IMG/VR virus record: IMGVR_UViG_3300034045_000055
Span: 1-37,489 of that record
DNA: 37,489 nucleotides
From: a virus
Reading direction: 5' to 3' (one strand)
Below the pieces are notes generated by a model. It did no database searches, was not told the origin of the DNA, and saw nothing but the letters and a program-made list of their open reading frames with translations. Below, in pieces: positions 2,686 to 35,930 of the stretch (the stretch's first letter is position 1; each line of letters opens with the position of its first letter). Both the position numbers and the translations under genes were made by a program.

Positions 2686-3450
2686 ATGGCTAAACGACAG
2701 GCTTCCAAACGGCAGAAACGCGATAATGCACGGGATCGTGAAGACAGCTCCTACCGGCGAAAAAACCCAGCGCAGATCAGGCTACCAGCCTTGGAAGCCC
2801 AGACAGCCACCCAGAAAAAAATGATAAGCATGATCACGACGAACTCGCAGACATTTGCTGTGGGGCCAGCTGGTACGGGAAAAACCTATATTGCTGCACG
2901 TAAGGCCGCAGACTTGTACGACCAAAAGCAGGTGCGTAAAATTGTGATATCACGCCCGAATACGCCCACCGGTCGCAGCTTGGGATTTTTCCCCGGCACT
3001 CTGGAAGAGAAAATCGCACCTTGGGCGGTCCCTGTCATTGAGGTGCTGGAAGCCTCGCTTGGAAAATCGCATGTTGAACACCTCTTGAAGACTGGCAAGA
3101 TAGAGGTGGCACCCTTCGAGACCATGCGCGGGCGCACCTTTGATGACGCCTTCATCATATTGGATGAGGCCCAGAACACCACGCCGCATGAAATGAAAAT
3201 GTTTCTCACCCGTGTAGGTGCCCGCAGCACCTTGATCGTCAGCGGCGACGTGTCACAGTCCGACTTACAAGGCAACAGCCTTGATGGATTGACAATGGCA
3301 TTGCAACTGGTTGCAAAATTTGACCTGCCCGTCGGCGTGGTGGAATTCACCACGGAGGATGTCGTGCGCTCAGACATATCCGCGCAGTGGGTTGTGGCGT
3401 TTTACAGGCATGAGGCAGCCAATGGGAGAGGGCTTGATCGGGTGGCATGA
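2686..3450 (+). CDS. phoH: PhoH-like ATPase
   Basis: 254 residues. Walker A GPAGTGKT is at residues 60-67, the family motif ISRPNTPTGRSLGFFPG follows at about 88-104, and Walker B FIILDEAQN is at 156-164, then the sensor segment VSGDVSQSDL. Length fits phage PhoH proteins. PhoH-like proteins are NTPases linked to RNA metabolism; they are common in phages, but their exact role is unresolved. The first 30 residues are highly basic. The start at 2686 is chosen over an upstream in-frame start because of the AGAGGAGA site. The gene contains a perfect copy of the dispersed palindrome at 3301-3316. A weak 5-bp hairpin (3458-3479) followed by T7 may end its transcript. Confidence 0.93.
   Translation: MAKRQASKRQKRDNARDREDSSYRRKNPAQIRLPALEAQTATQKKMISMITTNSQTFAVGPAGTGKTYIAARKAADLYDQKQVRKIVISRPNTPTGRSLGFFPGTLEEKIAPWAVPVIEVLEASLGKSHVEHLLKTGKIEVAPFETMRGRTFDDAFIILDEAQNTTPHEMKMFLTRVGARSTLIVSGDVSQSDLQGNSLDGLTMALQLVAKFDLPVGVVEFTTEDVVRSDISAQWVVAFYRHEAANGRGLDRVA
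3301..3316. repeat. palindrome site 1 (TG centre)
   Basis: TTGCAACTGGTTGCAA, perfect half-sites, inside phoH. It is read in frame as Leu-Gln-Leu-Val-Ala. Confidence 0.85.
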
Positions 3451-3486
3451 TCCTGTCATGAGCAGATAATCCTTCTCATTTTTTTC

Positions 3487-3514
3487 TTGCATATAATCGT
3501 GGTTGTGGTATGCT
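3487..3514 (+). promoter_or_regulatory. family promoter with conserved spacer
   Basis: -35 TTGCAT (3487-3492), spacer ATAATCGTGGTTGTGG, -10 TATGCT (3509-3514), preceded by a T-tract. The leader GTCAGAAAAGAGAAAGG (3521-3537) is shared with other members and contains the ribosome binding site of the DUF6011 gene. Confidence 0.85.
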
Positions 3515-3546
3515 GTACATGTCAGAAAAGAGAAAGGATGATCACA

Positions 3547-4218
3547 ATGGCTTATGCAGCACAAAGAGCACAGCGTCAGGTGGACTTGGACCACATATCC
3601 GATCTACCACAATCCGCCATCGCGAAGGAACTTGAGGCGCTTACCTCAAAGCTGAGCGAACGCAGCCGTGAGTTTGCACTGTCCCTGTTGTCCCAGTACG
3701 GCAAGCGAGGACTTACATCCAAACAGGACTATTGGATGCGCAAACTGTACCGGCAGGCCGTGGAGGGCGAGAAGCCTCTGGCGCAGGTATCAGTTGGCGA
3801 CCTCACAGGGGTCGAAAATCTTCTGAACACCGCTAAAAGCAACGGGCTGAAATACCCACGCATCACCATGGAGACCTCGGAAGGTAACCCGGTCCAGATA
3901 TCAATGGCGGGGAGCAGATCGAAGGCACCCGGCAGTCTGAACATCACGGACGGCGGGCGCTACGGGTCGAACACGTGGTACGGTCGCGTGATTGACGGTA
4001 GGATGACAATATCGCCACGTGCATTGGAAGCGCATCCTGATGAGACGAAAGATGTGTGCCTTCTGTTGTCTAGGTTGGCAAGCACCCCGAAGGAAACGAT
4101 CACTGAATATGGCCGGATGTCAGGATACTGCGCGTGCTGCGGTCGCAAACTCACTGATCCCGCATCCATGAAGTTGGGTATGGGGCCTGTATGCGCAAGC
4201 CGTTTCGGCTTAGTATGA
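3547..4218 (+). CDS. DUF6011-type zinc-binding protein
   Basis: 223 residues. The C-terminus holds CACCGRKLTD followed by GMGPVCASRFG, the four-cysteine signature I know from the DUF6011 domain found in many phage and actinobacterial proteins. The N-terminal 100 residues are helical and basic, the middle (TWYGRVIDGRMTISPRA) is beta-rich. The ATG at 3547 is preferred over 3538 because AGAAAGG then sits about nine bases upstream. It is alone behind a strong family promoter, followed closely by another gene with its own good ribosome site. Function unknown; nucleic-acid binding is a reasonable guess. Confidence 0.8.
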   Translation: MAYAAQRAQRQVDLDHISDLPQSAIAKELEALTSKLSERSREFALSLLSQYGKRGLTSKQDYWMRKLYRQAVEGEKPLAQVSVGDLTGVENLLNTAKSNGLKYPRITMETSEGNPVQISMAGSRSKAPGSLNITDGGRYGSNTWYGRVIDGRMTISPRALEAHPDETKDVCLLLSRLASTPKETITEYGRMSGYCACCGRKLTDPASMKLGMGPVCASRFGLV

Positions 4219-4239
4219 AATTTTGAGGAGGATATGATC

Positions 4240-4755
4240 ATGGCATTACCGGAATGGGCAGAAGCCGACGGAATATATACACTTTTTTATAAGGGGTATC
4301 ACGCCCTCACGAAGCAACCGGTGGAAATCGTCAGCGCGGTCATCACGGCAATGGGCGTCCAGAATTATGGCCCGTTGAAGGGGCACATCCTGTACAAGCT
4401 GACCCTGTATTACGAACTGAAAAAAGGGACACGCGCCTATGAGCGCCGCGTCACCAACGGTATATCCAAACCGGGTCCGGACGGGCGGCACTATAGGAAG
4501 GTGGAACGAGGTGGTCTATCCCTCAGTGAGGCACAGCTTCTGGCCTGCGTGCATCTGCCTTGTGATGAGGGCGAACTTGATCGTGAGGCCAGTGAGCAGG
4601 GGTGGGGGCATCGTGAGTACACGGATACGGTCGAACACGCTGAGCGCCAGCAGGAACTCGAAATTGCAGCCCATCAGTTTCGCGATTTTCACAAGGCCCA
4701 GAAGATAATGGCAGACCTCAATCAATTCATGAGGAAAGGTGGTGGTTTGTCCTGA
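4240..4755 (+). CDS. hypothetical protein
   Basis: 171 residues, unrecognised. GAGGAGG at 4224-4230 fits the ATG at 4240 (nine bases) better than the ATG at 4234 (three bases). The first half is beta-rich (HILYKLTLYYELKKGTRAYE), the second half is helical and charged and ends in a Gly-rich tail. It follows the DUF6011 gene by 21 bases and is probably co-transcribed with it. Confidence 0.75.
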   Translation: MALPEWAEADGIYTLFYKGYHALTKQPVEIVSAVITAMGVQNYGPLKGHILYKLTLYYELKKGTRAYERRVTNGISKPGPDGRHYRKVERGGLSLSEAQLLACVHLPCDEGELDREASEQGWGHREYTDTVEHAERQQELEIAAHQFRDFHKAQKIMADLNQFMRKGGGLS

Positions 4756-4804
4756 TATGGGACGCTAGGGATAGGCATTTTTTTCAAAAACATGAACTTT
4801 TTTC

Positions 4805-4832
4805 TTGCAAACAATCGTGGGTGTGGTATTCT
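4805..4832 (+). promoter_or_regulatory. family promoter with conserved spacer
   Basis: -35 TTGCAA (4805-4810), spacer ACAATCGTGGGTGTGG, -10 TATTCT (4827-4832). A T7 tract lies just upstream, and the leader includes GTCAGATAGAGAAAC. Confidence 0.85.
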
Positions 4833-4868
4833 ATATATGTCAGATAGAGAAACTTAGGAGACAGACCC

Positions 4869-5285
4869 ATGACACGTACAGCCAAAACCACAAAAGTCAC
4901 CCTCGCGAAGATCAAATCAGCGCAGAAGCGCCACGCGCGCCAGCTGGCCAAGATCGAGGCTGGTCTGATCGAAGCAGGCACCGTGTATGTAAAGAACGCG
5001 ATCCAATACAAAGTCCGCAAGGATGGAGTGCATGAGCGTATGCCGACACGTGATCACCCGGTAACGCGGGAAGAGGTGGTGTTCATGCTGACCAATGTTA
5101 GAGCACTGGAACAGGAAGACGTGCTGCATTTCATCGGTAAAGGGGCCATGGATTTTATGCTTCAGCATGACCTGTTGCGCAAGTTGGAAGATGGCTTGCT
5201 CTGGATCACCACCAACGCGCAACGTAAATACGGTCTCCAAAATCCCATGCTTCCATCAGGTGTCAGGGCACGATACGTGAAGTAA
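4869..5285 (+). CDS. hypothetical basic protein
   Basis: 138 residues, strongly basic in the first 50 (TKVTLAKIKSAQKRHARQLA). The second half is helical (REEVVFMLTNVRALEQEDVL) and could be a small helix-turn-helix fold, but no family is recognised. AGGAG at 4856-4860 supports the start. It has its own family promoter and is followed by a strong terminator, so it is a single-gene transcription unit. Confidence 0.8.
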   Translation: MTRTAKTTKVTLAKIKSAQKRHARQLAKIEAGLIEAGTVYVKNAIQYKVRKDGVHERMPTRDHPVTREEVVFMLTNVRALEQEDVLHFIGKGAMDFMLQHDLLRKLEDGLLWITTNAQRKYGLQNPMLPSGVRARYVK

Positions 5286-5302
5286 TAAATGTTAAACGGC
5301 AG

Positions 5303-5334
5303 AAAGACCGATGGGGTGTGCTCATCGGTCTTTT
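5303..5334 (+). terminator. Rho-independent terminator
   Basis: An 11-bp perfect stem AAAGACCGATG / CATCGGTCTTT with a 9-base loop, followed by a T-run. It ends the 4805 transcript and insulates the ribonucleotide reductase gene. Confidence 0.88.
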
Positions 5335-5346
5335 CGTGTCACTAAC

Positions 5347-5362
5347 GTGCAACCCGTTGCAG
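5347..5362. repeat. palindrome site 2 (CC centre)
   Basis: GTGCAACCCGTTGCAG: perfect 14-bp core with both outer bases deviating. It lies between the terminator and the RNR gene. The 110 bases from here to the RNR start show no clear promoter and no B12-riboswitch signature. Confidence 0.75.
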
Positions 5363-5475: not shown

Positions 5476-8208
5476 ATGTTTGATACTGTCACTACGCAGT
5501 TTATTGCCCCTGAAACCTCACGCCCGCTGCATCCCACCATGGGGCAGGGTGTGGCTGAAAGGACGTATTTACGTCGCGTTTTTACGGACCCACAAAAAGC
5601 AAGCATCGGCAATGACGGCCTGCATCTGAACCCGAGCGATCCAGATTTTCAAAAGTGGTATGTTGCCGCTCTGAATTCGAATGTGCCGGTGGCAGTGTGC
5701 GATGACGCAACACATGTAGGCCATGCCCCTGATACCAGATGGGAAGAATGGCACGAAGTCGCACACCGGGTTGCACTTGGAAATGTTTCATTGCTGCGAA
5801 CGCTGGCGGACAACACCCCGCATGAAGAAGGGCTGAATTATATCCGAGACACTCGCAGGAAACTTGCCGATACCACCGCAGTCCCGGAGCATACAATGAT
5901 GGCGAACGCAATCGCGAACGGGTCACTGCTGATGTCCGGGCGGCACCTACAGCAGGGTGATGCGAACCAAGCCAACAGGAATATGGAGGTGTTCACGAAC
6001 TGCGCGACAGCTTCCACCAGCTTCGCCCTGTTCATGCTGCTACTCAATGGATCAGGAGTAGGCCGGGATTACTCTGACGCGATGATGGCGGTAGACTGGG
6101 CAAAGGATATGCCCATGATCGTCCCGGTGCTGAAGGAAGATCATCCAGATTTCATATGGGGCAGGCATGTATCGGTGAGGGACGCAAAGCACCTCTACAA
6201 AACGGGGAAAGACATATACTGGCATGAGGTCGAGGACAGCCGGGAGGGGTGGGGCAAAGCGATAGAGGCTCTTGAACTGACAACCTACCGCAATGGGCGC
6301 AATCGGAAGAAGATAAAACGGGACGTTCGGGTGAATGTGCTCGTGCTGGATTTCTCAAAAGTGCGGGAAGAAGGGAAACCTATTATGGGGATGCAGGGCC
6401 GACCGTCATCCGGCCCTGCCCCCCTGATGGATGCAATCGAGAAGATCGCGCGGATCAGGGGCACCGGCCTGAAGCCGTGGCTTGCCACCCTGTACATGGA
6501 TCATTACCTTGCGGAGCCGGTCCTTGTGGGTGGGGCACGACGATCTGCCCGCATGTCCACGAAGAACTGGAGGGACGAGGACATCCTCGAATTCATCGGG
6601 GTGAAACGCCCCATTGAATATGAGGGTATGACCATGGAAGACGTGCAGGAACATCAGAAAAATCTGGTAGCCTCCGGTAGGACACTTCCCATGTCTTTCC
6701 TGTGGTCATCCAACAATTCAGTGGCCGTGGACGCGGATTTTTGGGCGCGGGTGAAAGGGCCGATCACCTCAGACCAGATGACTATCAAGGCCAAGATGGT
6801 GTACGAATATGCTTGCCAATGTGCCTACGGCGACGGGACCGGAGAGCCGGGATTTGTGAACGTGGATCGGCTGACCACGAAAGACGAGGGGCTTGGTCTC
6901 GGGGAAGAGGAACCCGCCACCGCATTCCGCGACGGCGAATATATCGGGTCACTGCGGTATCAGGTCAGTGGTAGCACGAAGGAACTGATGCGTGACCTGC
7001 ATGACCGGTTCAAGGATATGCCGTACCACTATATCGTGAACCCTTGTGGAGAAATTGTGTTATGCATTCTCGGGGGGTTCTGCGTCATCGCGGACGTGGT
7101 GCCTTTCCATGCTTCATCCATAATCGAAGCCACGGAAGTCGCGAAGACAGCAGCTCGCGCACTGATACGTGTCAACACCATGGACAGTATATACAATGCT
7201 GAGGTGCACCGCACAAACCGCATCGGCGTCGGAGTGACGGGGATACACGAAGCCGCTTGGAAATTTTTCAGGTGCGGGTTCCGCGACTTGCTGGCACCCG
7301 ACTTTCAGAAATATGCAGCCTTGTATCCTTCCTTTGACGAAATGGTGCCGGACAGCGACGATCTGATTGAATTCTTTTCCCAGCACGAAAACCCTGCAAT
7401 TCGTGCCGCCGCCTTCTGGGATTGGTTGGGTGATATGGCACGTGCTGTGGAGAAAGAGGCGACACGATACGCGAAGGCACTCGGGGTCAACGTGCCGCAC
7501 ACGTTCCTGACTGTGAAGCCGTCCGGGTCAGTTTCTAAACTGTTTGGCCTGTCGGAGGGCTGGCACCTACCCGCCATGCGCCATTATATCAGGTGGGTGC
7601 AGTATCATAAAAACAGCCCCATGCTGGATGAGTACCGGGCCGCAGGCTATCCAGTCCGCGAACTGCAATCCTACCGTGACCACTTCATCGTAGGGTTCCC
7701 CACTGAACCTGCGATGTGCGGACTTGATGGGGTGAATGATCACCTCGTGACGGCGGGCGAGGCCACCATGGCTGAGCAATTCACATGGCTGCGGATGGGC
7801 GAATTTTTCCTGATGGAAGGGGGGTCAGCAAAGGATTGGCTGGATCACGAAGGGAACATGGATAGCTTCCTGTCTGGCAAGCGGGATCGGGGCGTCGAAC
7901 CCATAGGGAACCAGATCAGTTACACCATGAAATACGTTCCTGAAGAGACCAGCTTTGAGCATTTCAAATCCGCCATCCTCAACTATCAACCCTACGTCCG
8001 GTGTGTCAGCGTGATGCCGCAATCCATGACTGCTGCCTACGAATATCTACCGGAGGAACAGGTCAGCATCGTGGACTATCAGAAATTGCTGGCAGACGTG
8101 CGCCGGGAAAACAGCACACCCTCTGAGGATGTGGGGATCGAGCACCTTGATTGCTCCACTGGGGCGTGCCCCATCGCATTCACGGATGCCAACAAGGAAG
8201 ACTTGTAG
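5476..8208 (+). CDS. nrdJ: adenosylcobalamin-dependent (class II) ribonucleotide reductase
   Basis: 910 residues; reduces ribonucleotides to deoxyribonucleotides. The active-site loop NPCGEI is at 522-527 with the radical Cys at 524 and Glu at 526. C176 (in FTNCATAS) and C536 or C530 are candidates for the redox pair. The C-terminus LDCSTGACPI has C893 and C898, spaced as in the shuttle cysteines of the monomeric Lactobacillus RTPR. VKPSGSVSKLFGLSEGWH near 680 matches the substrate-phosphate loop region. No separate NrdB or NrdG is nearby, as expected for class II. It is about 170 residues longer than RTPR. The ATG at 5476 has GGAG seven bases upstream; an ATG at 5446 would add ten residues. 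Confidence 0.92.
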   Translation: MFDTVTTQFIAPETSRPLHPTMGQGVAERTYLRRVFTDPQKASIGNDGLHLNPSDPDFQKWYVAALNSNVPVAVCDDATHVGHAPDTRWEEWHEVAHRVALGNVSLLRTLADNTPHEEGLNYIRDTRRKLADTTAVPEHTMMANAIANGSLLMSGRHLQQGDANQANRNMEVFTNCATASTSFALFMLLLNGSGVGRDYSDAMMAVDWAKDMPMIVPVLKEDHPDFIWGRHVSVRDAKHLYKTGKDIYWHEVEDSREGWGKAIEALELTTYRNGRNRKKIKRDVRVNVLVLDFSKVREEGKPIMGMQGRPSSGPAPLMDAIEKIARIRGTGLKPWLATLYMDHYLAEPVLVGGARRSARMSTKNWRDEDILEFIGVKRPIEYEGMTMEDVQEHQKNLVASGRTLPMSFLWSSNNSVAVDADFWARVKGPITSDQMTIKAKMVYEYACQCAYGDGTGEPGFVNVDRLTTKDEGLGLGEEEPATAFRDGEYIGSLRYQVSGSTKELMRDLHDRFKDMPYHYIVNPCGEIVLCILGGFCVIADVVPFHASSIIEATEVAKTAARALIRVNTMDSIYNAEVHRTNRIGVGVTGIHEAAWKFFRCGFRDLLAPDFQKYAALYPSFDEMVPDSDDLIEFFSQHENPAIRAAAFWDWLGDMARAVEKEATRYAKALGVNVPHTFLTVKPSGSVSKLFGLSEGWHLPAMRHYIRWVQYHKNSPMLDEYRAAGYPVRELQSYRDHFIVGFPTEPAMCGLDGVNDHLVTAGEATMAEQFTWLRMGEFFLMEGGSAKDWLDHEGNMDSFLSGKRDRGVEPIGNQISYTMKYVPEETSFEHFKSAILNYQPYVRCVSVMPQSMTAAYEYLPEEQVSIVDYQKLLADVRRENSTPSEDVGIEHLDCSTGACPIAFTDANKEDL

Positions 8209-9792: not shown

Positions 9793-9808
9793 TTGCAACC
9801 CGTTGCAA
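9793..9808. repeat. palindrome site 3 (CC centre)
   Basis: TTGCAACCCGTTGCAA, perfect 16-mer, 41 bases before the start of the first ParB-like gene and therefore in operator position. Confidence 0.85.
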
Positions 9809-9849
9809 TTATGGTTCAGTAACAAGTGAAGCAACAGGCAGGCATCTCA

Positions 9850-10487
9850 TGCATATTGAGCTAGAGAAGCGGGCATTGGACGCGATTACTCCATACGCCC
9901 AAAACTCCAAACACCACGGCGAGGAAGACGTCGCGCTGATCATGGCATCAATCGAACGGTTCGGGTTCAATGACCCAATAGCAGTCGATGAGGATGGGGT
10001 GATAATTGAGGGCCACGGTCGCTATGAAGCGGCCACAAACCTATCACTCGAACATGTCCCCGTTATAGTGTTGAGCGGTCTCACCGATGAGCAGAAGCGG
10101 ATGTACCGCATAGCACACAACAAGATCGCATTATCATCCACCTTCGATTTTGCAAAGTTGGCAGAAGCTCTAGGGCAGATCGCTGGCGACGACATAACGT
10201 ACAACCACCTAGGGTTTTCCGACGCAGTTGCAGATAATTTGGTGAATGTGGTGTTCGGGGATGGCAGCCTGAAGGAACCATCCTTATCATCTGTTGAGCC
10301 GTTTGACGTAATTTGGGATACCAAGGAGCAACGGGACCGATGGCAGGGGTTCATGAAGCGGGTGCACGCAAATTTCCCAAATATGTCTGACGCGGAAGCA
10401 CTCATCGAATTCATAGAGGAAAGCGGCATACTGAGCGGCATCCGGAACCTGTCCAATGAGGTAGAGGAGGTGACCCATGAGCAGTGA
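9850..10487 (+). CDS. ParB/sulfiredoxin-fold protein, copy 1
   Basis: 212 residues. An N-terminal ParB N-domain-like fold: SIERFGFNDPIAVDEDG then IIEGHGRYEAA (EGHGR at 54-58), VPVIVLSG and the helix EQKRMYRIAHNKIAL. There is no partition-type KorB helix-turn-helix or CTP-binding GERRxR box, so this is the stand-alone nuclease/ParB-like family often found beside phage methylases and IbrA-like genes, not a plasmid partition ParB. The C-terminal 90 residues are acidic. The ATG at 9850 is chosen because residues then align with copy 2; an ATG at 9786 would run through the palindrome and has no ribosome site. It overlaps copy 2 by 11 bases. Confidence 0.85.
9945..9973 (+). repeat. 29-bp direct repeat, copy A (intragenic)
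   Basis: Identical to 10582-10610. It encodes the ASIERFGFND segment in both tandem ParB-like genes and marks their common origin. Confidence 0.85.
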
Positions 10488-11121
10488 CACTCTTGAGGTG
10501 ACAACCAGAAAAGTGGCGGACCTCATCAGGGACGAGGAAAACCTCAAGGTACATCCCGTGCTCCAAATTGATCAGCTTGTCGCATCAATCGAACGGTTCG
10601 GGTTCAATGATCCTGTGGGTATCGACGAGCAAAATAATGTGCTGGAAGGTCACGGTCGCCTCCTAGCGGCTGATAAGATTGGCCTCGATGAAGTGCCTGT
10701 CGTGGTTATATCCGGGTTGACCGAAGCAGAGAAGCGAGGGTACCGGATCGCGCACAATCAGACCACCATGAATACGGGGATGAACCGTGACGCGGTTCGG
10801 AATGAGTTTCAGGCACTGAACCTGAGCAGCGATGACTATATGAGCGTAGGTTACGCACAGGATGACGTACTGTTCCTATCGGATATGTTCGATGGGGACG
10901 CGAATTCAGACATGGATCATAACGGTCACGAGCGTGATAATGTGAGTTCGTTCCTACCTCCGGTGGTGAGGACGTCTATCACGTTTGACAATGACGCGCA
11001 GTTTGACAAGTTTCAGGATTTCCAGATGGCGCTGAGATCGCGGTACCCGGAGGGTGCCACCATAGCGGATCGGTTAATGCTGTTTGTCGATGAATATGAG
11101 GGACAGCTGGATGGCCACTAA
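10477..11121 (+). CDS. ParB/sulfiredoxin-fold protein, copy 2
   Basis: 214 residues, a paralogue of the gene before it. Shared blocks are ASIERFGFNDP, LEGHGRLLAADKI (EGHGR at 57-61), VPVVVISGLTEAEKR and YRIAHNQT. The C-terminal part (about 115-214) differs in detail but both copies keep a domain with aromatic residues and acidic helices (FDNDAQFDKFQDFQMALRSR here, DTKEQRDRWQGFMKRVHANF in copy 1), which suggests a second shared domain. Its start overlaps copy 1, and its end overlaps the IbrA-like start by 11 bases, so four genes form one coupled block. The role may be DNA binding or nicking; not shown. Confidence 0.85.
   Translation: MSSDTLEVTTRKVADLIRDEENLKVHPVLQIDQLVASIERFGFNDPVGIDEQNNVLEGHGRLLAADKIGLDEVPVVVISGLTEAEKRGYRIAHNQTTMNTGMNRDAVRNEFQALNLSSDDYMSVGYAQDDVLFLSDMFDGDANSDMDHNGHERDNVSSFLPPVVRTSITFDNDAQFDKFQDFQMALRSRYPEGATIADRLMLFVDEYEGQLDGH
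10582..10610 (+). repeat. 29-bp direct repeat, copy B (intragenic)
   Basis: Exact match to 9945-9973, within the second ParB-like gene. Confidence 0.85.
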
Positions 11122-12283
11122 GGAAAATGTAGAATTTTTGGGCGTGAACGTCTATGAAGAGGCGAAACGGCGCATAAAATATTGCTACGCAAACTGGGAT
11201 CACGTGTGGTTAAGTTTCAGCGGAGGCAAGGATAGCCTGTGCGTTCTATGGCTGATGCGCGAGGTGCTGGATGATATGGGATTGTCCCACGTCAAGGTTA
11301 ATGCTTTTTTTCGTGACGAGGAAGTCATTCCAGACGATGTGATATCCTTCGTTCAAGGTTTCATAGAAAACCCTGATCTTTCATCGCGGTTCAACGTCGC
11401 GTATTTCGCGGTACCAATGGCCAGCCACATATTCATGATGGGGGAACACTGGCCATATGTTCAGTGGGATAAATCGCGGGAGTGGTTGAGGGAGCCTCCG
11501 GAGTACGCCATACGCAAGCTGCATCCTGAAGATAAGCCCATGGATCAGCACGAAATGAACGGGCTGACCGCCGAGGTGTTGGGATTGAAGGGAAAAATTG
11601 CCATACTGAACGGCTTGCGTGCGGACGAAAGTTTGAACCGGTACCGATCCTGTGTGGCCAAGAAGGGACGATACAACTGGGTCATGGGGTCACCGGGGAA
11701 AGGTGAGAAAAATATCGCGTTCTGCAAGCCTATTTTCGACTGGGCGACTGGCGACTTGTTCAAGTATTTCAAAGAGAAAAACATCACGTATCCCTCAATA
11801 TACGACACGCAGCTTTATTCCGGAGAGAGCCTGCGAGTGTCCACCCCCTTGCATGATCGCGCGTATCAATCGCTGGTTAAATTGCGCGTCACTCATCCTA
11901 AGTTCTATGAACAAATACTGCACATCTGGCCTGAAGTTGCCACGCATGAACGGTACTATTGTGCTGTGGATCGCTACGGGATCATTGATCGGTATCCGAA
12001 GTCGTGGGAGGGCATCATCCAATATATCGAGGATAATATTGACAGCCCCACGAACAAAGCAAGAGCCATGGAAGTGCTAAAAAATTGCAAGACCATGAAA
12101 GACAAGAACCGCAGACTGGGGCGATATGCTGATAAGGCGTTCGGCTTTCCATTGTTGCATGTGTTCAAGCAAATAGTGGCGGGGAGCTACATGAAGGGCA
12201 TATCCACGGAACCTTTCCCTCCCCCGAGCTACATGGCGTATGAAGAAGCAGCTGAAAACCTTCGCGACGGCGGAAGAGATTAA
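11111..12283 (+). CDS. IbrA-like PP-loop ATPase, PAPS reductase family with DUF3440-like tail
   Basis: 390 residues. The PP-loop SGGKDS is at 37-42, followed by LCVLWLMREV and NAFFRDEEVIPDD. Further conserved-looking segments are GLRADESLNRYRSC and CKPIFDWATGDLFKYFKEKN. This combination and length match the IbrA group (PAPS-reductase-like plus DUF3440). The C-terminal Cys of true CysH enzymes (ECGxH) is absent, so sulfate assimilation is unlikely. Family members adenylate or thiolate unknown targets. GAGGGA seven bases upstream favours the ATG at 11111. It sits between a ParB pair and an IbrB-like ParB gene, the arrangement expected for ibrA/ibrB. Confidence 0.85.
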   Translation: MATKENVEFLGVNVYEEAKRRIKYCYANWDHVWLSFSGGKDSLCVLWLMREVLDDMGLSHVKVNAFFRDEEVIPDDVISFVQGFIENPDLSSRFNVAYFAVPMASHIFMMGEHWPYVQWDKSREWLREPPEYAIRKLHPEDKPMDQHEMNGLTAEVLGLKGKIAILNGLRADESLNRYRSCVAKKGRYNWVMGSPGKGEKNIAFCKPIFDWATGDLFKYFKEKNITYPSIYDTQLYSGESLRVSTPLHDRAYQSLVKLRVTHPKFYEQILHIWPEVATHERYYCAVDRYGIIDRYPKSWEGIIQYIEDNIDSPTNKARAMEVLKNCKTMKDKNRRLGRYADKAFGFPLLHVFKQIVAGSYMKGISTEPFPPPSYMAYEEAAENLRDGGRD

Positions 12284-12293
12284 GGAATACCAC

Positions 12294-12824
12294 ATGTTCA
12301 CAGATTTTGATAAACAGCCGATCAACCGGGTACAGTGGGTGCCAGTTGATCAGCTGAATGCCAATGACTACAATCCTAATCACGTTTTGGCGCAGGAAAT
12401 GCGTCTTCTGAAGCATTCGATGCTGGAGCAGGGGTGGATACAGCCGGTGCTGGTCTCAAAAGCTGACGACGAGGATACCTACACCATCATCGACGGGTTT
12501 CATCGCGCCACCTTGGTGAAGACTGACAAGCACGTCTTTAATATGACGAACGGGTTCGTGCCTTGCGTGATCATGGACATGACAGTGCCTGAACGTAAAA
12601 TGCTCACCGTCCGCATCAATCGGGCGAAAGGCTCACATAGCGCTGTGCGTATGCATGAGATCGTTGCCGGTCTGGTATCCGAACATGGCCTTCCTGTAGA
12701 CGCGATCATGCGCGGAATTGGGGCCACGAGACATGAGGTCGATACTCTTCTGACGGAGAATTTGTTCAAAAAATTCGATGTGGACAACACACCGTACTCG
12801 GAAGCGTGGAAACCGAAGGACTAA
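12294..12824 (+). CDS. IbrB-like ParB-domain protein
   Basis: 176 residues. ParB-like signature QWVPVDQLNANDYNPNHV, then EQGWIQPVLVSK, IIDGFHRATL (DGFHR at 67-71) and MLTVRINRAKGSH. The NRAKGSH box is typical of IbrB relatives and differs from the two ParB-like genes upstream. The segment after 120 (HEIVAGLVSEHGLPVDAIMR plus a helix with RHEVDTLL) could be a helix-turn-helix. An ATG at 12240 would overlap the previous gene by 44 bases. TAAGGA, formed by the upstream stop, supports 12294. A terminator follows. Confidence 0.83.
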   Translation: MFTDFDKQPINRVQWVPVDQLNANDYNPNHVLAQEMRLLKHSMLEQGWIQPVLVSKADDEDTYTIIDGFHRATLVKTDKHVFNMTNGFVPCVIMDMTVPERKMLTVRINRAKGSHSAVRMHEIVAGLVSEHGLPVDAIMRGIGATRHEVDTLLTENLFKKFDVDNTPYSEAWKPKD

Positions 12825-12953: not shown

Positions 12954-12969
12954 TTGCAACCAGTTGCAA
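12954..12969. repeat. palindrome site 4 (CA centre)
   Basis: TTGCAACCAGTTGCAA, perfect. It lies in the transcribed leader between the promoter at 12898 and the gene at 13009. Confidence 0.85.
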
Positions 12970-14375: not shown

Positions 14376-14391
14376 TTGCAACCCGTTGCAA
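14376..14391. repeat. palindrome site 5 (CC centre)
   Basis: TTGCAACCCGTTGCAA, perfect, in the 88-bp gap between two genes and 50 bases before the next start. Confidence 0.85.
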
Positions 14392-15337: not shown

Positions 15338-15353
15338 CTGCAACGGGTTGCAA
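15338..15353. repeat. palindrome site 6 (GG centre)
   Basis: CTGCAACGGGTTGCAA, one outer mismatch. The right half-site TTGCAA (15348-15353) doubles as the -35 box of the terminase promoter. Confidence 0.8.
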
Positions 15354-18342: not shown

Positions 18343-18947
18343 ACGTATTGCCGAACTTTATCAGAGCACCCGCCAGACGCATCAGACAGCGTATACTTCG
18401 AGCTTGGTATTCGGTGCAGAAATGGTGGTCATGTTTCATCGGGCTGCACTGCATAGAAGTCACTGAGGGTCGCGGGTTCACCCATATCAAATGCACGCGG
18501 TGTGATGCCTCAATCATGGCCACATGGGACGTCCACACAGAAAGTGGCCCCACACCCGAGACAGTCTCTGGAAGTGACACGGTAGCGGATGCGGGTGGTA
18601 AACCATTGCAACTGGTTGCAAATGATCCTGCTTTGGATGCAGAGGGGCATCTGTTGTTGCCCGAAGATGTGACCGGGTTCACGGTGGTGTGCATGTTTTT
18701 CTACACCCCAACTGAGCAACTCAATCACGCGCTGGTGTATGCCCCTGCATATGACGCAGAACACGCGCGTATGGCAGCAGAGCAGACCCTCATGAGTTAC
18801 ATGGGTACGATTGGTTATGAGGTGCAGCATCTTGATGTATGGGCCATCACCATATTCGAGGGCGAAGTGGACCCGGTGTGGGATGCAGGGCAGGAGGGAT
18901 CAGAAGATCAACCATCCGCTGAAAATTCAGACGATCCCGACGCATAA
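18339..18947 (+). CDS. hypothetical zinc-ribbon-like protein
   Basis: 202 residues, coupled to terL by ATGA overlap. The N-terminus is Arg-rich (RAPARRIRQRILRAWYSVQK). C32, C38, C52 and C55 (GLHCIEV then KCTRC) could form a small zinc ribbon. The C-terminal half is beta-rich with Tyr and His and ends in an acidic tail (EDQPSAENSDDPDA). It contains a palindrome site in frame. A packaging accessory role is suggested only by position. Confidence 0.75.
   Translation: MNVLPNFIRAPARRIRQRILRAWYSVQKWWSCFIGLHCIEVTEGRGFTHIKCTRCDASIMATWDVHTESGPTPETVSGSDTVADAGGKPLQLVANDPALDAEGHLLLPEDVTGFTVVCMFFYTPTEQLNHALVYAPAYDAEHARMAAEQTLMSYMGTIGYEVQHLDVWAITIFEGEVDPVWDAGQEGSEDQPSAENSDDPDA
18606..18621. repeat. palindrome site 7 (TG centre)
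   Basis: TTGCAACTGGTTGCAA, perfect, inside the gene after terL; read in frame as Leu-Gln-Leu-Val-Ala. Confidence 0.85.
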
Positions 18948-19141: not shown

Positions 19142-19157
19142 TTGCAACCAGTTGCAA
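19142..19157. repeat. palindrome site 8 (CA centre)
   Basis: TTGCAACCAGTTGCAA, perfect, 20 bases upstream of the -35 of the promoter at 19177 and downstream of the hairpin cluster. Confidence 0.85.
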
Positions 19158-19176: not shown

Positions 19177-19204
19177 TTGCAAATAATCGTGGTTGTGTTA
19201 TGCT
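19177..19204 (+). promoter_or_regulatory. family promoter, near-identical to that at 28814
   Basis: -35 TTGCAA (19177-19182), spacer ATAATCGTGGTTGTGT, -10 TATGCT (19199-19204), then GTAAAAGTCAGAAGAGAG. From the upstream T-tract through the leader it matches 28808-28868 almost base for base. Confidence 0.87.
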
Positions 19205-21591: not shown

Positions 21592-21607
21592 GTGCAACCC
21601 GTTGCAA
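21592..21607. repeat. palindrome site 9 (CC centre), overlapping site 10
   Basis: GTGCAACCCGTTGCAA. It shares its right half-site (21602-21607) with the next palindrome. Confidence 0.85.
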
Positions 21608-21617
21608 CCAGTTGCAA
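21602..21617. repeat. palindrome site 10 (CA centre), overlapping site 9
   Basis: TTGCAACCAGTTGCAA, perfect. Together with site 9 it gives three half-sites at 10-bp steps, one helical turn apart, 31 bases before the GTG start of the membrane protein gene. Confidence 0.85.
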
Positions 21618-24012: not shown

Positions 24013-24028
24013 TTGCAACGGGGTGCAA
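24013..24028. repeat. palindrome site 11 (GG centre, one mismatch)
   Basis: TTGCAACGGGGTGCAA, one mismatch in the right half-site, 14 bases before the next start and just upstream of its AAGGTGAGA ribosome site. Confidence 0.75.
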
Positions 24029-26250: not shown

Positions 26251-26666
26251 ATATGCAATGCACACCGAAGAAGCACACGAACGGTCAGCTTGCGTCGGCA
26301 GCCAAGCAGATCAACCCCGCCTATGTGGAATTCCTCGAAGAAGAAAATCGCACGCTGAAAGCGATCCTGTCCGGGTCTGACGAAGAGATAATCCTACCAC
26401 CCGGAGTGCATTTGACTGCGCGCCAGCTGCAAGTGATATCAACCATAGTGGCCCGCAAGGGGGACGTGGCATCGAAGGCAATGATACACCAAGCCCTCTA
26501 TTCTGACAGGCCGGACGGTGGCCCTACCCTTCTGGTCATCGACGTGTTGATATCCCAGATCAGGAAGCGGGTGGCGGGTGCTTTCGATATCGAAACACTG
26601 CACGGGCGGGGATACCGGATAAGCAGGGACGACATCGCAAAACTGGCAGGAGAACTCCCATGGTGA
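26247..26666 (+). CDS. winged-helix regulator (OmpR/CtrA-type C-terminal domain)
   Basis: 139 residues; an ATG at 26253 is an alternative start. A short coiled coil (YVEFLEEENRTLKAIL) is followed at 53-130 by a DNA-binding domain of the response-regulator C-terminal type: LTARQLQVISTIVARKGDVA, SKAMIHQALYSD, then VIDVLISQIRKRV (recognition helix) and ETLHGRGYRIS (wing). There is no receiver domain, so it is not phosphorylation-controlled in the usual way. It may mimic a host regulator such as CtrA. Target sites are unknown. Confidence 0.83.
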   Translation: MNMQCTPKKHTNGQLASAAKQINPAYVEFLEEENRTLKAILSGSDEEIILPPGVHLTARQLQVISTIVARKGDVASKAMIHQALYSDRPDGGPTLLVIDVLISQIRKRVAGAFDIETLHGRGYRISRDDIAKLAGELPW

Positions 26667-26862: not shown

Positions 26863-27174
26863 ATGACGAAGAAGAAAGAGAAGCGGACGCGGCCATGGCC
26901 CTCGCCTGATCCGGTGACAGCTGAAGATCAATCGGCCATACAGCCTGAGACCGCGAAATCAGAGGGCACCAAGGTTCCAGAAGACACGAGCCATCCTGTG
27001 CAACCCGTTGCAAACGGGCCGTTCAAGGCACCTTTCGAAGCCTACGGGGTCACCGTGAAGGATGCTGACGGTCGGACTGTTTGCCTGTGCGCGACATCCG
27101 CCCCTTGGAATACCAGAACGAAGGCGGCGGGCTGGATCGCGGATGCACTGAACACAGCGTCATCACCGTCCTGA
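26863..27174 (+). CDS. hypothetical protein with basic/disordered N-terminus
   Basis: 103 residues. The first 55 residues are low complexity, Lys/Glu/Pro/Ser-rich (TKKKEKRTRPWPSPDP); the rest (YGVTVKDADGRTVCLCATSA) is a compact beta-like domain. The junction between the two parts, VQPVA, is encoded by a palindrome site. GAAGGAAC upstream. Followed by a terminator. Confidence 0.75.
   Translation: MTKKKEKRTRPWPSPDPVTAEDQSAIQPETAKSEGTKVPEDTSHPVQPVANGPFKAPFEAYGVTVKDADGRTVCLCATSAPWNTRTKAAGWIADALNTASSPS
26998..27013. repeat. palindrome site 12 (CC centre)
   Basis: GTGCAACCCGTTGCAA, inside the gene at 26863; read in frame as Val-Gln-Pro-Val-Ala. Confidence 0.85.
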
Positions 27175-27791: not shown

Positions 27792-27807
27792 GTGCAACGG
27801 GTTGCAA
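27792..27807. repeat. palindrome site 13 (GG centre)
   Basis: GTGCAACGGGTTGCAA, intergenic, 15 bases after a stop codon. Confidence 0.85.
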
Positions 27808-28871: not shown

Positions 28872-30809
28872 ATGACCGCTTTAACGCTTACAGACCAACG
28901 CCCATGCGCGCTGAATTTTCTCAAACAAGAGACGGAATACCGCAAATACGGGACCACGTTTTACCACACCGACACGAATTCGGATCACGTTCTGCACCTG
29001 CCCATCGTAGGTCTTCTGATCACGAAACACCCAAGCTGGGATTACTATGTGAAGAAGCACTTCTGGCTGGACCAAATTGCTGAAAACCCAGACATGACAG
29101 AACCTACTGAATGCCTCACCGCTGCACTGGTGCTGGCCCCGCGCCTGACCAAAAACCAGCTGGATTACATAGATTGGTTCACTCAGTCACAGTTTACCCG
29201 AGTGTGGAGCGAAGAAACGAATTCGTTCGTCTTGTTCCGCAAGGTGATGTACGAGAATTACACCTACAGTGCTCCGAGGGAGGTGCGTGCTCACGCGCAA
29301 ATCAGGAGCACGTGTGGTCGCCCCTATGTCACCGCGCATTTTCATGAGGAGCAGGGCGACCCCGCGCGGGTATGGGTTACGCAGGATGCCGTGGACGTGG
29401 CGATAACGGTGGGTTACGCGATCAGCCGGGCCATCGGCAAATCAGATTACACCATCTATATTCACCCTTGCGGGGCACGTAACATTGAGGGCTTCGATAT
29501 CAACCGCGCAGCCGTGAGAAACATGGTAACCGCATGGAACCAGCTTAACGCGGGTCCGGAGGAAGGGGAGCAGGAGAATGTAGCAGATGCCAGCCGGTTT
29601 AGCACCTTCGACACGCATGAAGCGGTACGCATCCTGCGGCCCGTCAGCCGGGACATGGACCTTCCCATACGTGCAGACGCCGATGTGTCCAAGAACACGC
29701 TTGACAGGCAATCTGTCACTGGGCTGTGCAGGAGTATCAAAGCGATCACGAAGCGCCAGAAGGAAAAAATGGAAATGCCGAAAGCCGCAGGCAGGCTGAT
29801 AAACTTCGGCATAGACGAAGAGAAGGCACCTGACACCGCACTCGTGCCGAGAGATTTCATGGATGGGTTTTCCTACGACCGTGGCACCAGCTATGACAAT
29901 ACCATCGGTGATCTCATGGTCATCGGGCTTACGAAATCACTCACACCGATCAGGTTCCAGCCCGTCACCACTGAGTGGGTGGTGGACAGAAACTTGACGA
30001 GTGACATACTCAGCATCGAGCATTCCGCGATGTGGACCCGAGAACTGCGCACGTCATGGCTGTCACCGGAGAGCCGGGTGTATGTGCACAAAAGCGCCAC
30101 GCATTTCAGGTTCCTGTTTGCTGTAAAAGTCAACGCTGTATTACCAATACGGCTCAGCTCGATGACCAAATTTCCCGTGTTCATTTGTTTTGGGCACAAT
30201 GTACCGGTCGCTGGCATCAACACCGACTTCAGGACGACTTGGCGCGGCGCGCATCCTGATCTCATCGCTGCAATCAACGCGGTTCCGGGACTTCCCATCG
30301 CCTTGGTGTCCGCCCTGAATGAGGCCGGGGCGCAGATGAAGAAGATATCTGGGGATGCTGACACCTTTTGGGGGTTGTTCAATGCAGAGCGTCCATGCGA
30401 CGGGCATGTCATAGCGTTTACAGGATGGGGCCGCGAAGAAATAGAACGCCTCGACGATGAAGTAGGGATGACACGTGATGAAGATCAACGATCAATGTAT
30501 TACAGGACGTGGAAGGATAAATACGGTTTTGGCGGGAGCAACATAGATTACCGCAGAGACGGCCTGTGGAGCGTTCACAAAATAAGGGCGCGTGGATACC
30601 GGGGCCGGGGCGTTCCTTACCCTCGGGTGCTGGATTACGCGAAGCGGTGCTTCGCCAACGTGGGCAAAAACCTGATCGTGACCGCCGCCCCACGGACGGA
30701 GGGAAGCAATCTAAAATTGCAACCAGTTGCACGGCATCTGGATATCGACAACGAAACTGATATCCGGAAGAACGATTACCGGCTGAACAGGACCGTGAAC
30801 CTGTTTTGA
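28872..30809 (+). CDS. large orphan protein, unknown function
   Basis: 645 residues, the largest unassigned gene here. The frame is supported by a strong family promoter, an AGAGAGGGAC ribosome site and the absence of overlaps. The first 200 residues contain several aromatic and His-rich segments (FYHTDTNSDHVLHLPIVGLL); 200-300 hold a hydrophilic linker (GPEEGEQENVADAS) and a basic helix (CRSIKAITKRQKEKMEM); the last 250 have FRFLFAVKVNAVLPIRLSSM, FPVFICFGHNVPVAG and FTGWGREEIERLDDE. No family is recognised. A palindrome site lies in frame near its end. Confidence 0.82.
   Translation: MTALTLTDQRPCALNFLKQETEYRKYGTTFYHTDTNSDHVLHLPIVGLLITKHPSWDYYVKKHFWLDQIAENPDMTEPTECLTAALVLAPRLTKNQLDYIDWFTQSQFTRVWSEETNSFVLFRKVMYENYTYSAPREVRAHAQIRSTCGRPYVTAHFHEEQGDPARVWVTQDAVDVAITVGYAISRAIGKSDYTIYIHPCGARNIEGFDINRAAVRNMVTAWNQLNAGPEEGEQENVADASRFSTFDTHEAVRILRPVSRDMDLPIRADADVSKNTLDRQSVTGLCRSIKAITKRQKEKMEMPKAAGRLINFGIDEEKAPDTALVPRDFMDGFSYDRGTSYDNTIGDLMVIGLTKSLTPIRFQPVTTEWVVDRNLTSDILSIEHSAMWTRELRTSWLSPESRVYVHKSATHFRFLFAVKVNAVLPIRLSSMTKFPVFICFGHNVPVAGINTDFRTTWRGAHPDLIAAINAVPGLPIALVSALNEAGAQMKKISGDADTFWGLFNAERPCDGHVIAFTGWGREEIERLDDEVGMTRDEDQRSMYYRTWKDKYGFGGSNIDYRRDGLWSVHKIRARGYRGRGVPYPRVLDYAKRCFANVGKNLIVTAAPRTEGSNLKLQPVARHLDIDNETDIRKNDYRLNRTVNLF
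30717..30732. repeat. palindrome site 14 (CA centre)
   Basis: TTGCAACCAGTTGCAC, one outer mismatch, 77 bases before the end of the orphan gene; read in frame as Leu-Gln-Pro-Val-Ala. Confidence 0.8.
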
Positions 30810-33590: not shown

Positions 33591-33601
33591 GGGCAAGTCG
33601 T

Positions 33602-33853
33602 ATGCCGTGGGCTTTTTGGAGTAGAACCCTGAACATCCTGACGCTGGGCAGAAAGGGGGAGACCTTTTGTTGTCGCGCTTTCCGGTGTTGGCTGGAGGGC
33701 GCGTTCCCCGGCCACCTATTCTGGAAACTGGTATGCAAGCTGCTGGATAGTCTGGCCATGTGGTACTGGGGTGAGCGCGTGCACTGTTACAACCAGTATA
33801 ATTTTCATCTGCTCAACCGGGCAAATGACATCGAGGACACGATTGATACGTGA
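33602..33853 (+). CDS. hypothetical Trp/Cys-rich protein
   Basis: 83 residues. GAGGG overlapping the previous stop supports the ATG at 33602. Rich in Trp, Phe, Cys and Leu (GETFCCRAFRCWLEG, LFWKLVCKLLDSLAMWYWG), so it may associate with membranes. No family recognised. Confidence 0.6.
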   Translation: MPWAFWSRTLNILTLGRKGETFCCRAFRCWLEGAFPGHLFWKLVCKLLDSLAMWYWGERVHCYNQYNFHLLNRANDIEDTIDT

Positions 33854-33859
33854 TATTTC

Positions 33860-33875
33860 GTGCAACGGGTTGCAA
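33860..33875. repeat. palindrome site 15 (GG centre)
   Basis: GTGCAACGGGTTGCAA, in the 111-bp gap before the protease gene. TTGCAA at 33870 with TACAAA 17 bp on could be a weak promoter. Confidence 0.85.
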
Positions 33876-33964
33876 CGTGATTTAAGATAGGCTACAAATG
33901 CTGGTGACGAAGCCAGCGTACCCTCTGGCATCAGAGATTATATTTCACGCAGGCCATCGAACAC

Positions 33965-34576
33965 ATGACCCTCGACGTCCAAAAATTATCTCGACTTTGC
34001 CCGATCCGTCGTACCAATGATGACGAACGCCTTATCTATGCAGAGGTGTACGCACCCAACACGCTGGATACCTACGGCGAGTTTATGCTGGAAGACGACA
34101 TCAAAAAAATGGCACACAGGTTCATGAAGCTGGACCTGTCAAAGACCATCGACACCAATCACGACAACATTCCTAACGGCTCGCACCCTGTTGAGAGTTT
34201 CATCGCCCGTGCAGATGATCCAGATTTCACAGAGGGCGCGTGGGTTCTGGGCGTGCATGTGCCGGATGACATCATCTGGAAGGCCATAAAAAGTGGTGAG
34301 TTGAACTGCTATTCTTTCGAGGCCATGGTGCGGCCCGTGGAATACAAAACGGCTGTGTCCGTTATTCGCGATCATGTCGGCGTGACGAAAAAGGCAGAAG
34401 ACGACAAGGGCACAGATCATCACCACACGTTCTTTGTGCAGGTGGATCAGACCGGTGTGATCCGGAATGGTATGACATCACCCGGCCCGGACGGCCATGT
34501 GCACCGCATAGCGGGACCGTCACGGACAGAACGTGCAGGTGCGGATAACCATAACCACAGATTTGACCTGTTTTGA
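33965..34576 (+). CDS. prohead protease, XkdF-like
   Basis: 203 residues. VYAPNTLDTYGEFMLEDDIK, then IDTNHDN and VESFIARAD, then GAWVLGVHVPDD and LNCYSFEAMVR match the XkdF-like serine protease (peptidase S78-related) family; His in TNHD and Ser in CYSFE are the likely catalytic residues. The C-terminal 60 residues carry His-rich repeats (DHHHTFFV, DGHVHRIAG, DNHNHRF), a common extra domain in these enzymes, possibly metal-binding. It would cleave scaffold and capsid during prohead maturation. Confidence 0.84.
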   Translation: MTLDVQKLSRLCPIRRTNDDERLIYAEVYAPNTLDTYGEFMLEDDIKKMAHRFMKLDLSKTIDTNHDNIPNGSHPVESFIARADDPDFTEGAWVLGVHVPDDIIWKAIKSGELNCYSFEAMVRPVEYKTAVSVIRDHVGVTKKAEDDKGTDHHHTFFVQVDQTGVIRNGMTSPGPDGHVHRIAGPSRTERAGADNHNHRFDLF

Positions 34577-34589
34577 GGATACCTGACCC

Positions 34590-35930
34590 ATGAAACGTAA
34601 ACCTAAAACGAACATCGTCACGGCCCGTGCCCTGACTGATCCTGATCCCGCATTTGTATCTCTGGTCAAAGGCGGTGCAAACCAGCGGCCCTATCGGGCT
34701 GTTAAAATGGAGAGCGTCGAAGCGACGGCTCCACATGAAACCCGAAAGGAAAGTGACATGTCGAAGACACAGATTGTGCCGGAAGGCCACGACATCGCCG
34801 CGTTGAAGTTTGCATCCAAGCACTTCGCGGACGAACACGCCGTGGAAGCATGGCTGAAGCAAGGCGGATATGAAGGCTATAAGATCGAGAAGACCAAAGC
34901 TGGCTTCGAGGTCAATGCCACCGATGTGACCTTCAAGGAAGGTTCGCTGACGAAAGTGGATGGGGCCGTGAGCGGCCTGACCGTGTATATCGGTGAACTT
35001 GAGGGTGAGACACCTGCCGAGAAATCGGAAGACGAACAGGTTGCAGAGCACGCGGAAGACAACACCAGCGCCGTGCAACCAGTTGCAAAAAAAGGTGAAG
35101 CCCCCGTTGCTGATGCAGCGGATGAGGCCAAGGTCAAAGCCACGGTAAAAACCAGCGCCAAAACCAAGGCCACGGCAGATACCAAGGTTGAGAAAGCCGA
35201 CGCAGACACCAACGCGGTGGAAGCCGTGGCGGCGGATGATGAAAAAGTGGATGTGGCCAAAATGGTTGAAGACTTCATTGCCTCCAAAAAAGGCAACTAT
35301 GAGGTTTCCATGTTGTCCATGGTGCTGATGGACCTTGCCTACCTCGTGATGGATGCGGACTATATGGGCACGGACGACGCCACGGTTTCGCAGATCAAGA
35401 CGGCTGCAAAGACCCTCATCACCGCCCTGACCAATGAAATGGGTAACAGCGTTGCAGCCTTTGAAGATGCGTTCAAGGCCATTGCGGCGAAGCATGGTGT
35501 GGTTATCTCGGAAGCACCCGCAGCTGAAGCGGACGTACCTCCGGCTGACACCGCTACCCCGGCAGACGAAGCTGGTGTGGCAACGAAATCCGACGACGCC
35601 GGAGAGGGCACGAAGGATGAACTGGTAGTGAAGAAGGATGATCCTTTGATCGCTGCCATCGCAGGGCTGACAAATGCTGTTGCCGGTATGAAAACCGACA
35701 TGGCAGCCAGCCTGAAAGAGATCAACGATAAGGTGGATGCCACCAAGGCGGAGATCAATGAGCGGGTTGAAGCGGTCGAGACGACCTCGCAGTCCCGCAA
35801 AGGAGCAGATGTTACCGGTGATACGGAAGAAGCAACAGCCGATGCAGCGCAGAAAGCCGAAGGTGAAAACCGGAAGCGTAAAGTCCGCCTTGCATCCGCG
35901 CTGGGGCATCCAAACCCTGATCGCGTGTAA
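34590..35930 (+). CDS. scaffold-like head protein
   Basis: 446 residues. Its location between protease and capsid, high Ala/Glu/Lys/Asp content and predicted coiled-coil tail (MKTDMAASLKEINDKVDATK) are typical of scaffold or head-assembly proteins. The N-terminal VSLVKGGANQRPY is the phage motif seen in protease/scaffold genes (VSLVxxGANxxP). A second domain at 60-110 (KFASKHFADEHAVEAWLKQG) precedes an Ala-rich linker (150-215). A palindrome site lies in the linker. The region after 215 may bind the capsid. Confidence 0.78.
   Translation: MKRKPKTNIVTARALTDPDPAFVSLVKGGANQRPYRAVKMESVEATAPHETRKESDMSKTQIVPEGHDIAALKFASKHFADEHAVEAWLKQGGYEGYKIEKTKAGFEVNATDVTFKEGSLTKVDGAVSGLTVYIGELEGETPAEKSEDEQVAEHAEDNTSAVQPVAKKGEAPVADAADEAKVKATVKTSAKTKATADTKVEKADADTNAVEAVAADDEKVDVAKMVEDFIASKKGNYEVSMLSMVLMDLAYLVMDADYMGTDDATVSQIKTAAKTLITALTNEMGNSVAAFEDAFKAIAAKHGVVISEAPAAEADVPPADTATPADEAGVATKSDDAGEGTKDELVVKKDDPLIAAIAGLTNAVAGMKTDMAASLKEINDKVDATKAEINERVEAVETTSQSRKGADVTGDTEEATADAAQKAEGENRKRKVRLASALGHPNPDRV
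35073..35088. repeat. palindrome site 16 (CA centre)
   Basis: GTGCAACCAGTTGCAA, in the linker of the scaffold-like gene; read in frame as Val-Gln-Pro-Val-Ala. Confidence 0.85.

Follow-up and report, generated by a model that had tools for sequence, protein, structure and literature searches.

The viral DNA stretch studied here (IMG/VR virus record IMGVR_UViG_3300034045_000055, positions 1 to 37,489; all 37,489 nucleotides are hereafter the window) raises the question of which protein reads a 16-bp interrupted palindrome that is dispersed over it in sixteen copies. We propose that these palindromes are probably binding sites of phrog_17202, a protein family of unknown function in PHROGs, which would act as a ParB/KorB/Noc-like dimer without a clamp, coating the phage genome and regulating it. 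The sixteen sites, first listed in an earlier note made from the sequence alone, were recovered at all 16 coordinates, 15 of them with an exact TGCAACNNGTTGCA core and the one at 24013 (TTGCAACGGGGTGCAA) with a single core mismatch. Over the 14 fixed bases of TTGCAACNNGTTGCAA, seven of the 16 sites are perfect, eight carry one mismatch and the site at 5347 carries two. In an unbiased count of inverted repeats (6+gap+6), this site ranks first among the window's palindromes with 15 copies, and TGCAACNNGTTGCA appeared zero times in 100 dinucleotide shuffles versus 15 exact matches in the window. All 16 window sites have CC/GG or CA/TG at their centre (10 CM, 6 KG), just as the earlier note had described it; in the sites of relatives the centre is not restricted to these pairs.

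The window matches a rotated stretch of the 85.3-kb viral contig G001 exactly, with 0 mismatches over 18,998 + 18,489 bases. Its phage is related to Rhizobium phage L338C, the capsid proteins being 64% identical, and our own gene-calling script placed 100 of 100 genes of G001 on one strand. Counted over the full contig, TGCAACNNGTTGCA occurs 29 times and the reversed pattern not at all. The exact core is also frequent in relatives, with 28 copies in G002, 48 in G008, 47 in L338C, 37 in G014, 28 in G015, 19 in G012 (a 32-kb contig) and 45 in RHph_I4 (I4), and 41 of the 43 alignable L338C sites coincide with sites in RHph_I4, so that the sites are conserved. The unbiased inverted-repeat count returned a single dominant palindrome for each of the listed G001-type relatives. 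Centre length is not constant within a genome: one-base centres add 12 sites in L338C and 7 in I4, and three-base centres add 10 in G015.

Phages of Rhizobium, Agrobacterium, Rhodobacter, Stenotrophomonas, Aeromonas, Pseudomonas and Vibrio carry their own versions of the site, with 9 to 59 copies each. More distant relatives have diverged versions, found in JP1 (33 TGCAAAYRTTTGCA), V-YDF132 (25 TGCAATTAATTGCA), HJ05 (16 TGCAACYRGTTGCA), DLP5 (31 sites, 27 of them TGCAAT-NN-ATTGCA) and 29Fa.3 (about 20 copies of GCAAT-NN-ATTGC). The sites of SIO-2 (11) combine one TGAAA and one TGCAA half. VcaS_HC has no outstanding palindrome and instead 21 copies of the asymmetric YGNNNTTAATTGCA, 17 of them oriented with transcription; the same pattern gives 22 matches in VHS1 and 36 in KarBoss, both strands summed, so that a palindromic copy counts twice. 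Asymmetric sites were seen only in some Vibrio phages, and G010 has none of the site versions searched. A literature search on the motif strings and on dispersed palindromes in these phages, covering open-licence papers, returned nothing relevant.

The best candidate for the binder is encoded outside the window. In G001, phrog_17202 is a 446-aa protein at 58797-60137. The gene of this family belongs to a replication/recombination block, where it adjoins those of RecA, an exonuclease and RuvC. All 12 site-bearing genomes that include a replication module (12 of 12) encode the family, and the site-less G010 lacks it. Ten further records hold both protein and sites (P11VFA, Pa BHU-15, plasmid p7, VHS1, SIO-2, 29Fa.3, KarBoss, RcZahn, RHph_TM16 and RcTiptonus), and dispersed sites were present in all 22 carriers examined singly. 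Of five same-capsid phages chosen as presumed negatives, Pa BHU-15 turned out to have both the protein (E 2e-44) and 15 sites, and the other four are without phrog_17202 and show 0-1 sites. Same-capsid phages without phrog_17202 have 0-1 sites in 5 of 5 cases, G010 included.

The family was matched in 49 phage records, and 80 viral loci were kept from a bait search in which loci were found by the phrog_17202 protein alone, without use of the motif. The best palindrome reached at least 4 copies in 40 of these 80 loci versus 2 of 80 for shuffles; in three of the 40 (L262, L274, L275) it has another sequence. New versions recovered in this way are TGAAAT-NN-ATTTCA, GGCAAT-NN-ATTGCC, CGCAAT-NN-ATTGCG, TGCAGA-NN-TCTGCA and TGACAT-NN-ATGTCA. 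Within 40 bait records chosen for length, TGMAAN4TTKCA occurs 605 times versus 12 for the reversed pattern, with at least 5 copies in 29 records. We trust the shuffles as control, since a set of 58 control loci (9 with at least 4 copies, 8 of these of the motif family) had been found by searching with the motif itself and is a poor one.

The phrog_17202 gene itself is preceded by a site. In 10 of the 11 genomes tested (G012 left out), the distance from the start of phrog_17202 to an upstream site is 21-199 bp. With genes called by our own script, which also underlies the placement and promoter counts and the spacing test with scattered genic sites and which under-calls JP1 (74% coding), the own-gene site is found within 200 bp in 9 of 10, placing the family first of 23 conserved families (BLAST clusters present in 6 or more genomes), and the next family reaches 5 of 11. 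In the bait loci, the own palindrome of the locus stands upstream of phrog_17202 in 25 of 37 versus 3.7 expected. Protein and site also vary together: core residue 115 is R or K in 9 of 9 proteins with TGCAAC-type sites and in 0 of 31 others (40 proteins, with the label of L212, a spacing variant, set by hand and loci with fewer than 3 copies left out), which relates this residue to site position 6; signals at site position 3 are weaker.

AlphaFold models of two distant phrog_17202 members, with a mean predicted local distance difference test score (pLDDT) of 82.8 and 82.7 and values over 90 for most of the core, resemble most closely the DNA-binding domains of ParB proteins (6sdk, Z 9.5; 7bnr, 9.2; 4umk, Spo0J-parS, 8.8), and the best match of one model is Noc (7ol9, Noc on its binding site NBS, Z 8.8; 6y93, Z 8.5). 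Chromosomal ParB and Noc domains fill the top rows with Z 7.6-9.5 over 93-101 residues at a root-mean-square deviation (rmsd) of 2.4-3.4; 6s6h scores Z 7.3 with rmsd 5.0-8.7, and SopB and P1 ParB score Z 4.5-4.8. Both models show helices after the helix-turn-helix (HTH) core. By sequence, the family has no convincing solved relative (best E 0.02), and Pfam found no ParB_N cytidine triphosphatase (CTPase) domain (PF02195) at E<=1 in six of six members (L338C, VcaS_HC, JP1, V-YDF132, DLP5, G008).

The sites favour gaps between genes, and in most of the genomes tested they are spaced more evenly than by chance. Across 12 genomes, a set that includes the near-identical pair L338C and P11VFA, 248 of 437 sites are intergenic versus 54 expected from the non-coding fraction, and the coefficient of variation of the intervals is 0.48-0.76 versus about 0.95 under random placement. 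The spacing is even with p<0.005 in 10 of the 12 genomes and with p 0.023 in G014. With the intergenic sites fixed and the genic ones scattered, the real array was more even (p<0.02) in 10 of 12 (not in G014 and HJ05), which suggests that the spacing itself is under selection. Nearly all called genes run in one direction in 11 of the 12 genomes (the exception being G015), and many sites stand just behind a stop codon or ahead of a promoter. Some sites have a phage-specific -35-like motif shortly downstream, at 6-12 bp from the site end (19 bp in one case). These motifs, which were defined only after inspecting the site flanks, have an upstream site in 12 of 18 cases in I4, 9 of 16 in L338C, 8 of 13 in V-YDF132, 9 of 15 in G014, 6 of 18 in G002 and 2 of 4 in G008, and zero were found on the opposite strand in the seven genomes. 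L338C, RHph_I4, G002, G014 and V-YDF132 each have a well conserved -35-like text of their own, which for L338C and I4 is TTGACAAAGGATC, and in VcaS_HC (L189-L193) a site ends exactly 8 bp upstream of 5 of 8 TTTACAAAACAA motifs. A generic sigma-70 pattern stands downstream of 13 of the 52 sites in I4 and of 15 of the 59 in L338C (0.5 expected), and of 1-4 sites in G001, G002, G008, V-YDF132 and JP1.

The proposal of the earlier note that the palindrome is the binding site of a phage-encoded dimeric protein fits these data as a putative assignment, the sites being palindromic, a trait of the phage group, conserved and tied to one phage protein. From the computed array, spacing, co-occurrence, own-gene site and fold resemblance we infer binding by a dimer, repression or activation at promoters, and a role in the nucleoid or in lysogeny. 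Through the HTH core, a dimer would sit on each palindrome with one subunit per half-site. As no ParB CTPase domain was found, the protein would presumably not slide as a clamp; a ParB-fold protein of this kind would need many fixed sites to reach the genome, as the array looks, and would cover it at one site per about 2-3 kb. Sites just upstream of a -35 box may serve promoter control, including that of its own promoter, as KorB does at promoter-proximal O_B. The other sites may organise or silence the genome in the manner of Noc or of stoperator repressors, notably in plasmid-like prophages.

The parallels to parS-like sites and stoperators that the earlier note had drawn fit well. The site of ParB, parS, is a palindrome of 14-16 bp, and the predicted HTH fold of phrog_17202 resembles that of ParB (6sdk, Z 9.5; 4umk, Z 8.8); in the phage system, however, neither a CTPase domain nor ParA was found and the sites are not clustered. 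Noc, with the HTH domain to which one phrog_17202 model is most similar, likewise uses many dispersed palindromic sites. It also carries a CTPase domain and a helix for membrane binding, acts on division and sits on the host chromosome, whereas the sites here are on a phage. KorB of RK2, of the ParB family that the modelled phrog_17202 fold resembles, is a global regulator of a mobile replicon, as proposed for the phage protein. According to PMC11790492, its 16-bp O_B sites lie partly 4-10 bp upstream of promoters and partly far away, it is a CTP-dependent clamp that slides up to 1.5 kb with KorA as a lock, and variants unable to close the clamp still repress from proximal O_B. Unlike KorB, the phage protein has no ParB_N domain that we could find and is accompanied by 9-59 mostly even sites. 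Given the KorB precedent and the array of fixed sites, we favour a global DNA-coating regulator, which would resemble KorB at promoters and Noc or stoperator repressors at the other sites. The array apparently points to a system of packing or gene silencing that spans the genome and is as yet undescribed.

A more tentative elaboration, possible rather than probable, would be a phage chromatin of fixed pitch, with one bound dimer per 2-3 kb, selected spacing and genic sites filling the gaps between intergenic ones. The hard-wired array would replace sliding ParB-CTP clamps and would silence and compact the genome in both lytic and plasmid-prophage states, and site and protein would co-evolve into mutually blind specificities. 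DLP5 is reported as a phagemid (PMC5834331, PMC7326821). The circular Rhizobium bangladeshense plasmid p7 (NZ_CP071625.1, L285; 109,431 bp) has RuvC, phrog_17202 and ribonucleotide reductase (RNR) genes adjacent, a capsid protein 49% identical to that of the window and 50 sites; its circularity, capsid, phrog_17202 and sites make it probably an L338C-type plasmid prophage, judged by sequence. The proposal assigns a function to a family with predicted sites in nearly every genome. If true, the ParB/KorB/Noc group would gain a branch without a clamp, and the diverged pairs of protein and site would form a natural series in which to study changes of DNA-binding specificity. It may also explain the persistence of large siphophages (DLP5, the 109-kb Rhizobium "plasmid") as circular prophages.

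Several observations weigh against this assignment of the sites to phrog_17202. RecA occurs in 49 of 53 bait loci and replication genes are nearly as widespread as phrog_17202, so that its presence alone is not decisive. G014 has 37 sites and no phrog_17202, on a contig that also lacks RecA, DnaB, helicase and primase and is probably incomplete. Fewer than 5 copies of TGMAAN4TTKCA were present in 11 of the 40 bait records chosen for length; six of these have another palindrome and five none that is clear, and three of the six alternatives reach 3 copies only, a number that shuffles reach or exceed in 14 of 80. VcaS_HC has no site in the 400 bp searched upstream of its phrog_17202 gene. The covariation of residue 115 with site position 6 corresponds to only 2 changes on the tree, which common descent could explain, and is suggestive only. 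As to the fold, Foldseek gave no significant Protein Data Bank match for the models, Raf1 also scores Z 6.7-7.4, and for a helical protein Z 8-9.5 is a moderate score; the resemblance of the core to a ParB/Noc-like HTH domain is therefore good but not proof. The spacing of HJ05 sites is not significant (p 0.23), and the promoter link is partial, with the generic sigma-70 pattern after 0 sites in DLP5, HJ05, G014 and VcaS_HC and a looser promoter-like pattern after 1 of the 16 window sites.

Some of the same features suit strict stoperators, with phrog_17202 or another repressor serving as an immunity repressor that halts elongation in lysogeny and having no packing role. Nearly all genes are one-directional in every placement-set genome except G015, many sites follow stop codons or precede promoters, DLP5 (PMC5834331) and p7 are plasmid-like prophages, and the VcaS_HC sites are asymmetric and mostly aligned with transcription. 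According to PMC6550527, Cluster A phages (L5 gp71 type) carry 20-30 such repressor sites per genome, motif distance tracks repressor distance and some prophages are extrachromosomal; the sites here are likewise spread over the genome (29 exact in G001, 9-59 elsewhere). The same paper describes stoperators as 13-14 bp long, without dyad symmetry, following transcription and bound by a monomer, whereas most phage sites here are palindromes and the window centres run 10:6. Together with at least one carrier, R21Y, called lytic in PMC10671443, and the position of the phrog_17202 gene in a replication/recombination block, this makes strict stoperators unlikely. A dispersed centromere, at which the protein would partition the plasmid prophage over parS-like sites with a host ParA or none, would agree with the modelled ParB-type fold and the plasmid-like prophages (PMC5834331). 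It is quite improbable given that a ParA-type ATPase (AAA_31, PF13614) turned up in none of the 13 genomes searched, against 14 of 14 control genomes, that the ParB_N CTPase was not found in the six members scanned and that the sites are spread genome-wide; the plain ParABS form was ruled out by the lack of ParA in these 13 genomes. Least probable of all is a signal for recombination, packaging or modification (Chi-like, pac-like or a methylation target) that phage enzymes would read: even genome-wide spacing and the neighbourhood of RecA, exonuclease and RuvC would suit it, but the sites prefer gene gaps and -35 boxes, and the associated protein is modelled with a DNA-binding fold and not that of an enzyme.

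It is also highly improbable that the ParB_N-type proteins encoded in the window (9849, 10477, 12240) bind the sites, either alone or as the CTPase half of a split ParB with phrog_17202. We had first favoured them because one iterative search placed their superfamily in 12 of 12 palindrome-bearing genomes and not in VcaS_HC, and a site lies 41 bp before the gene at 9849. They were ruled out by the 21 asymmetric sites of VcaS_HC and by site-rich records without ParB_N, none being detected at E<=0.01 in G033 (28 sites), G043 (35) and G057 (24); the superfamily also occurs in the site-less G010, and Pfam finds in the three proteins an N-terminal ParB domain only and no HTH. In the gene row 9849-10487, 10477-11121, 11111-12283 and 12240-12824, three genes are of the ParB_N type, the third adjoining a phosphoadenosine phosphosulfate (PAPS) reductase-like gene, and such a combination is annotated as an IbrAB-like pair in RHph_I4. 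None of the regulators that the earlier note had listed as candidate binders (9850, 10477, 12294, 26247, 818, 21183) is supported. The product of 26253-26666, an OmpR/PhoB-type winged helix with no receiver domain match, was rejected with a relative in 1 of 13 other genomes searched (G008); the genes at 818 and 21183 had no match when scanned against PHROGs only, and an HTH gene of G001 at 54657 gave a weak match only.

Within the window, with genes called over the whole 85.3-kb genome, sites fall both in gaps and inside genes, as noted before: 12 of 16 are intergenic and four are genic (3301, 18606, 30717, 35073). The genic ones are TTGCAACTGGTTGCAA at 3301..3316 inside a PhoH-like gene (2686-3450), TTGCAACTGGTTGCAA again at 18606..18621 inside gene 18516-18947, TTGCAACCAGTTGCAC at 30717..30732 inside gene 28872-30809 and GTGCAACCAGTTGCAA at 35073..35088 inside gene 34590-35930. 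Several intergenic sites stand close before genes: GTGCAACCCGTTGCAG (5347..5362) 114 bp before the ribonucleotide reductase gene (5476-8208), TTGCAACCCGTTGCAA (9793..9808) before the ParB_N-type gene, for which 9849 is the better start, TTGCAACGGGGTGCAA (24013..24028) 15 bp before gene 24043 and GTGCAACGGGTTGCAA (33860..33875) 90 bp before the head protease gene at 33965. TTGCAACCAGTTGCAA at 19142..19157 precedes gene 19235 by 78 bp, with a weak, tentative promoter-like TTGCAA...TATGCT downstream on the + strand (19177..19204). Further intergenic copies are TTGCAACCAGTTGCAA at 12954..12969, TTGCAACCCGTTGCAA at 14376..14391 and CTGCAACGGGTTGCAA at 15338..15353, and two lie in stretches without a called gene, GTGCAACCCGTTGCAA at 26998..27013 and GTGCAACGGGTTGCAA at 27792..27807. 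The intergenic sites GTGCAACCCGTTGCAA at 21592..21607 and TTGCAACCAGTTGCAA at 21602..21617 overlap by six common bases, TTGCAA, and two dimers might bind there side by side or compete. A second element, CTACA..TGTAG / ACACGTGTAG, stands in few copies close upstream of some gene starts in the Rhizobium-group phages G008, G014, I4 and G001 and is possibly the site of another regulator.

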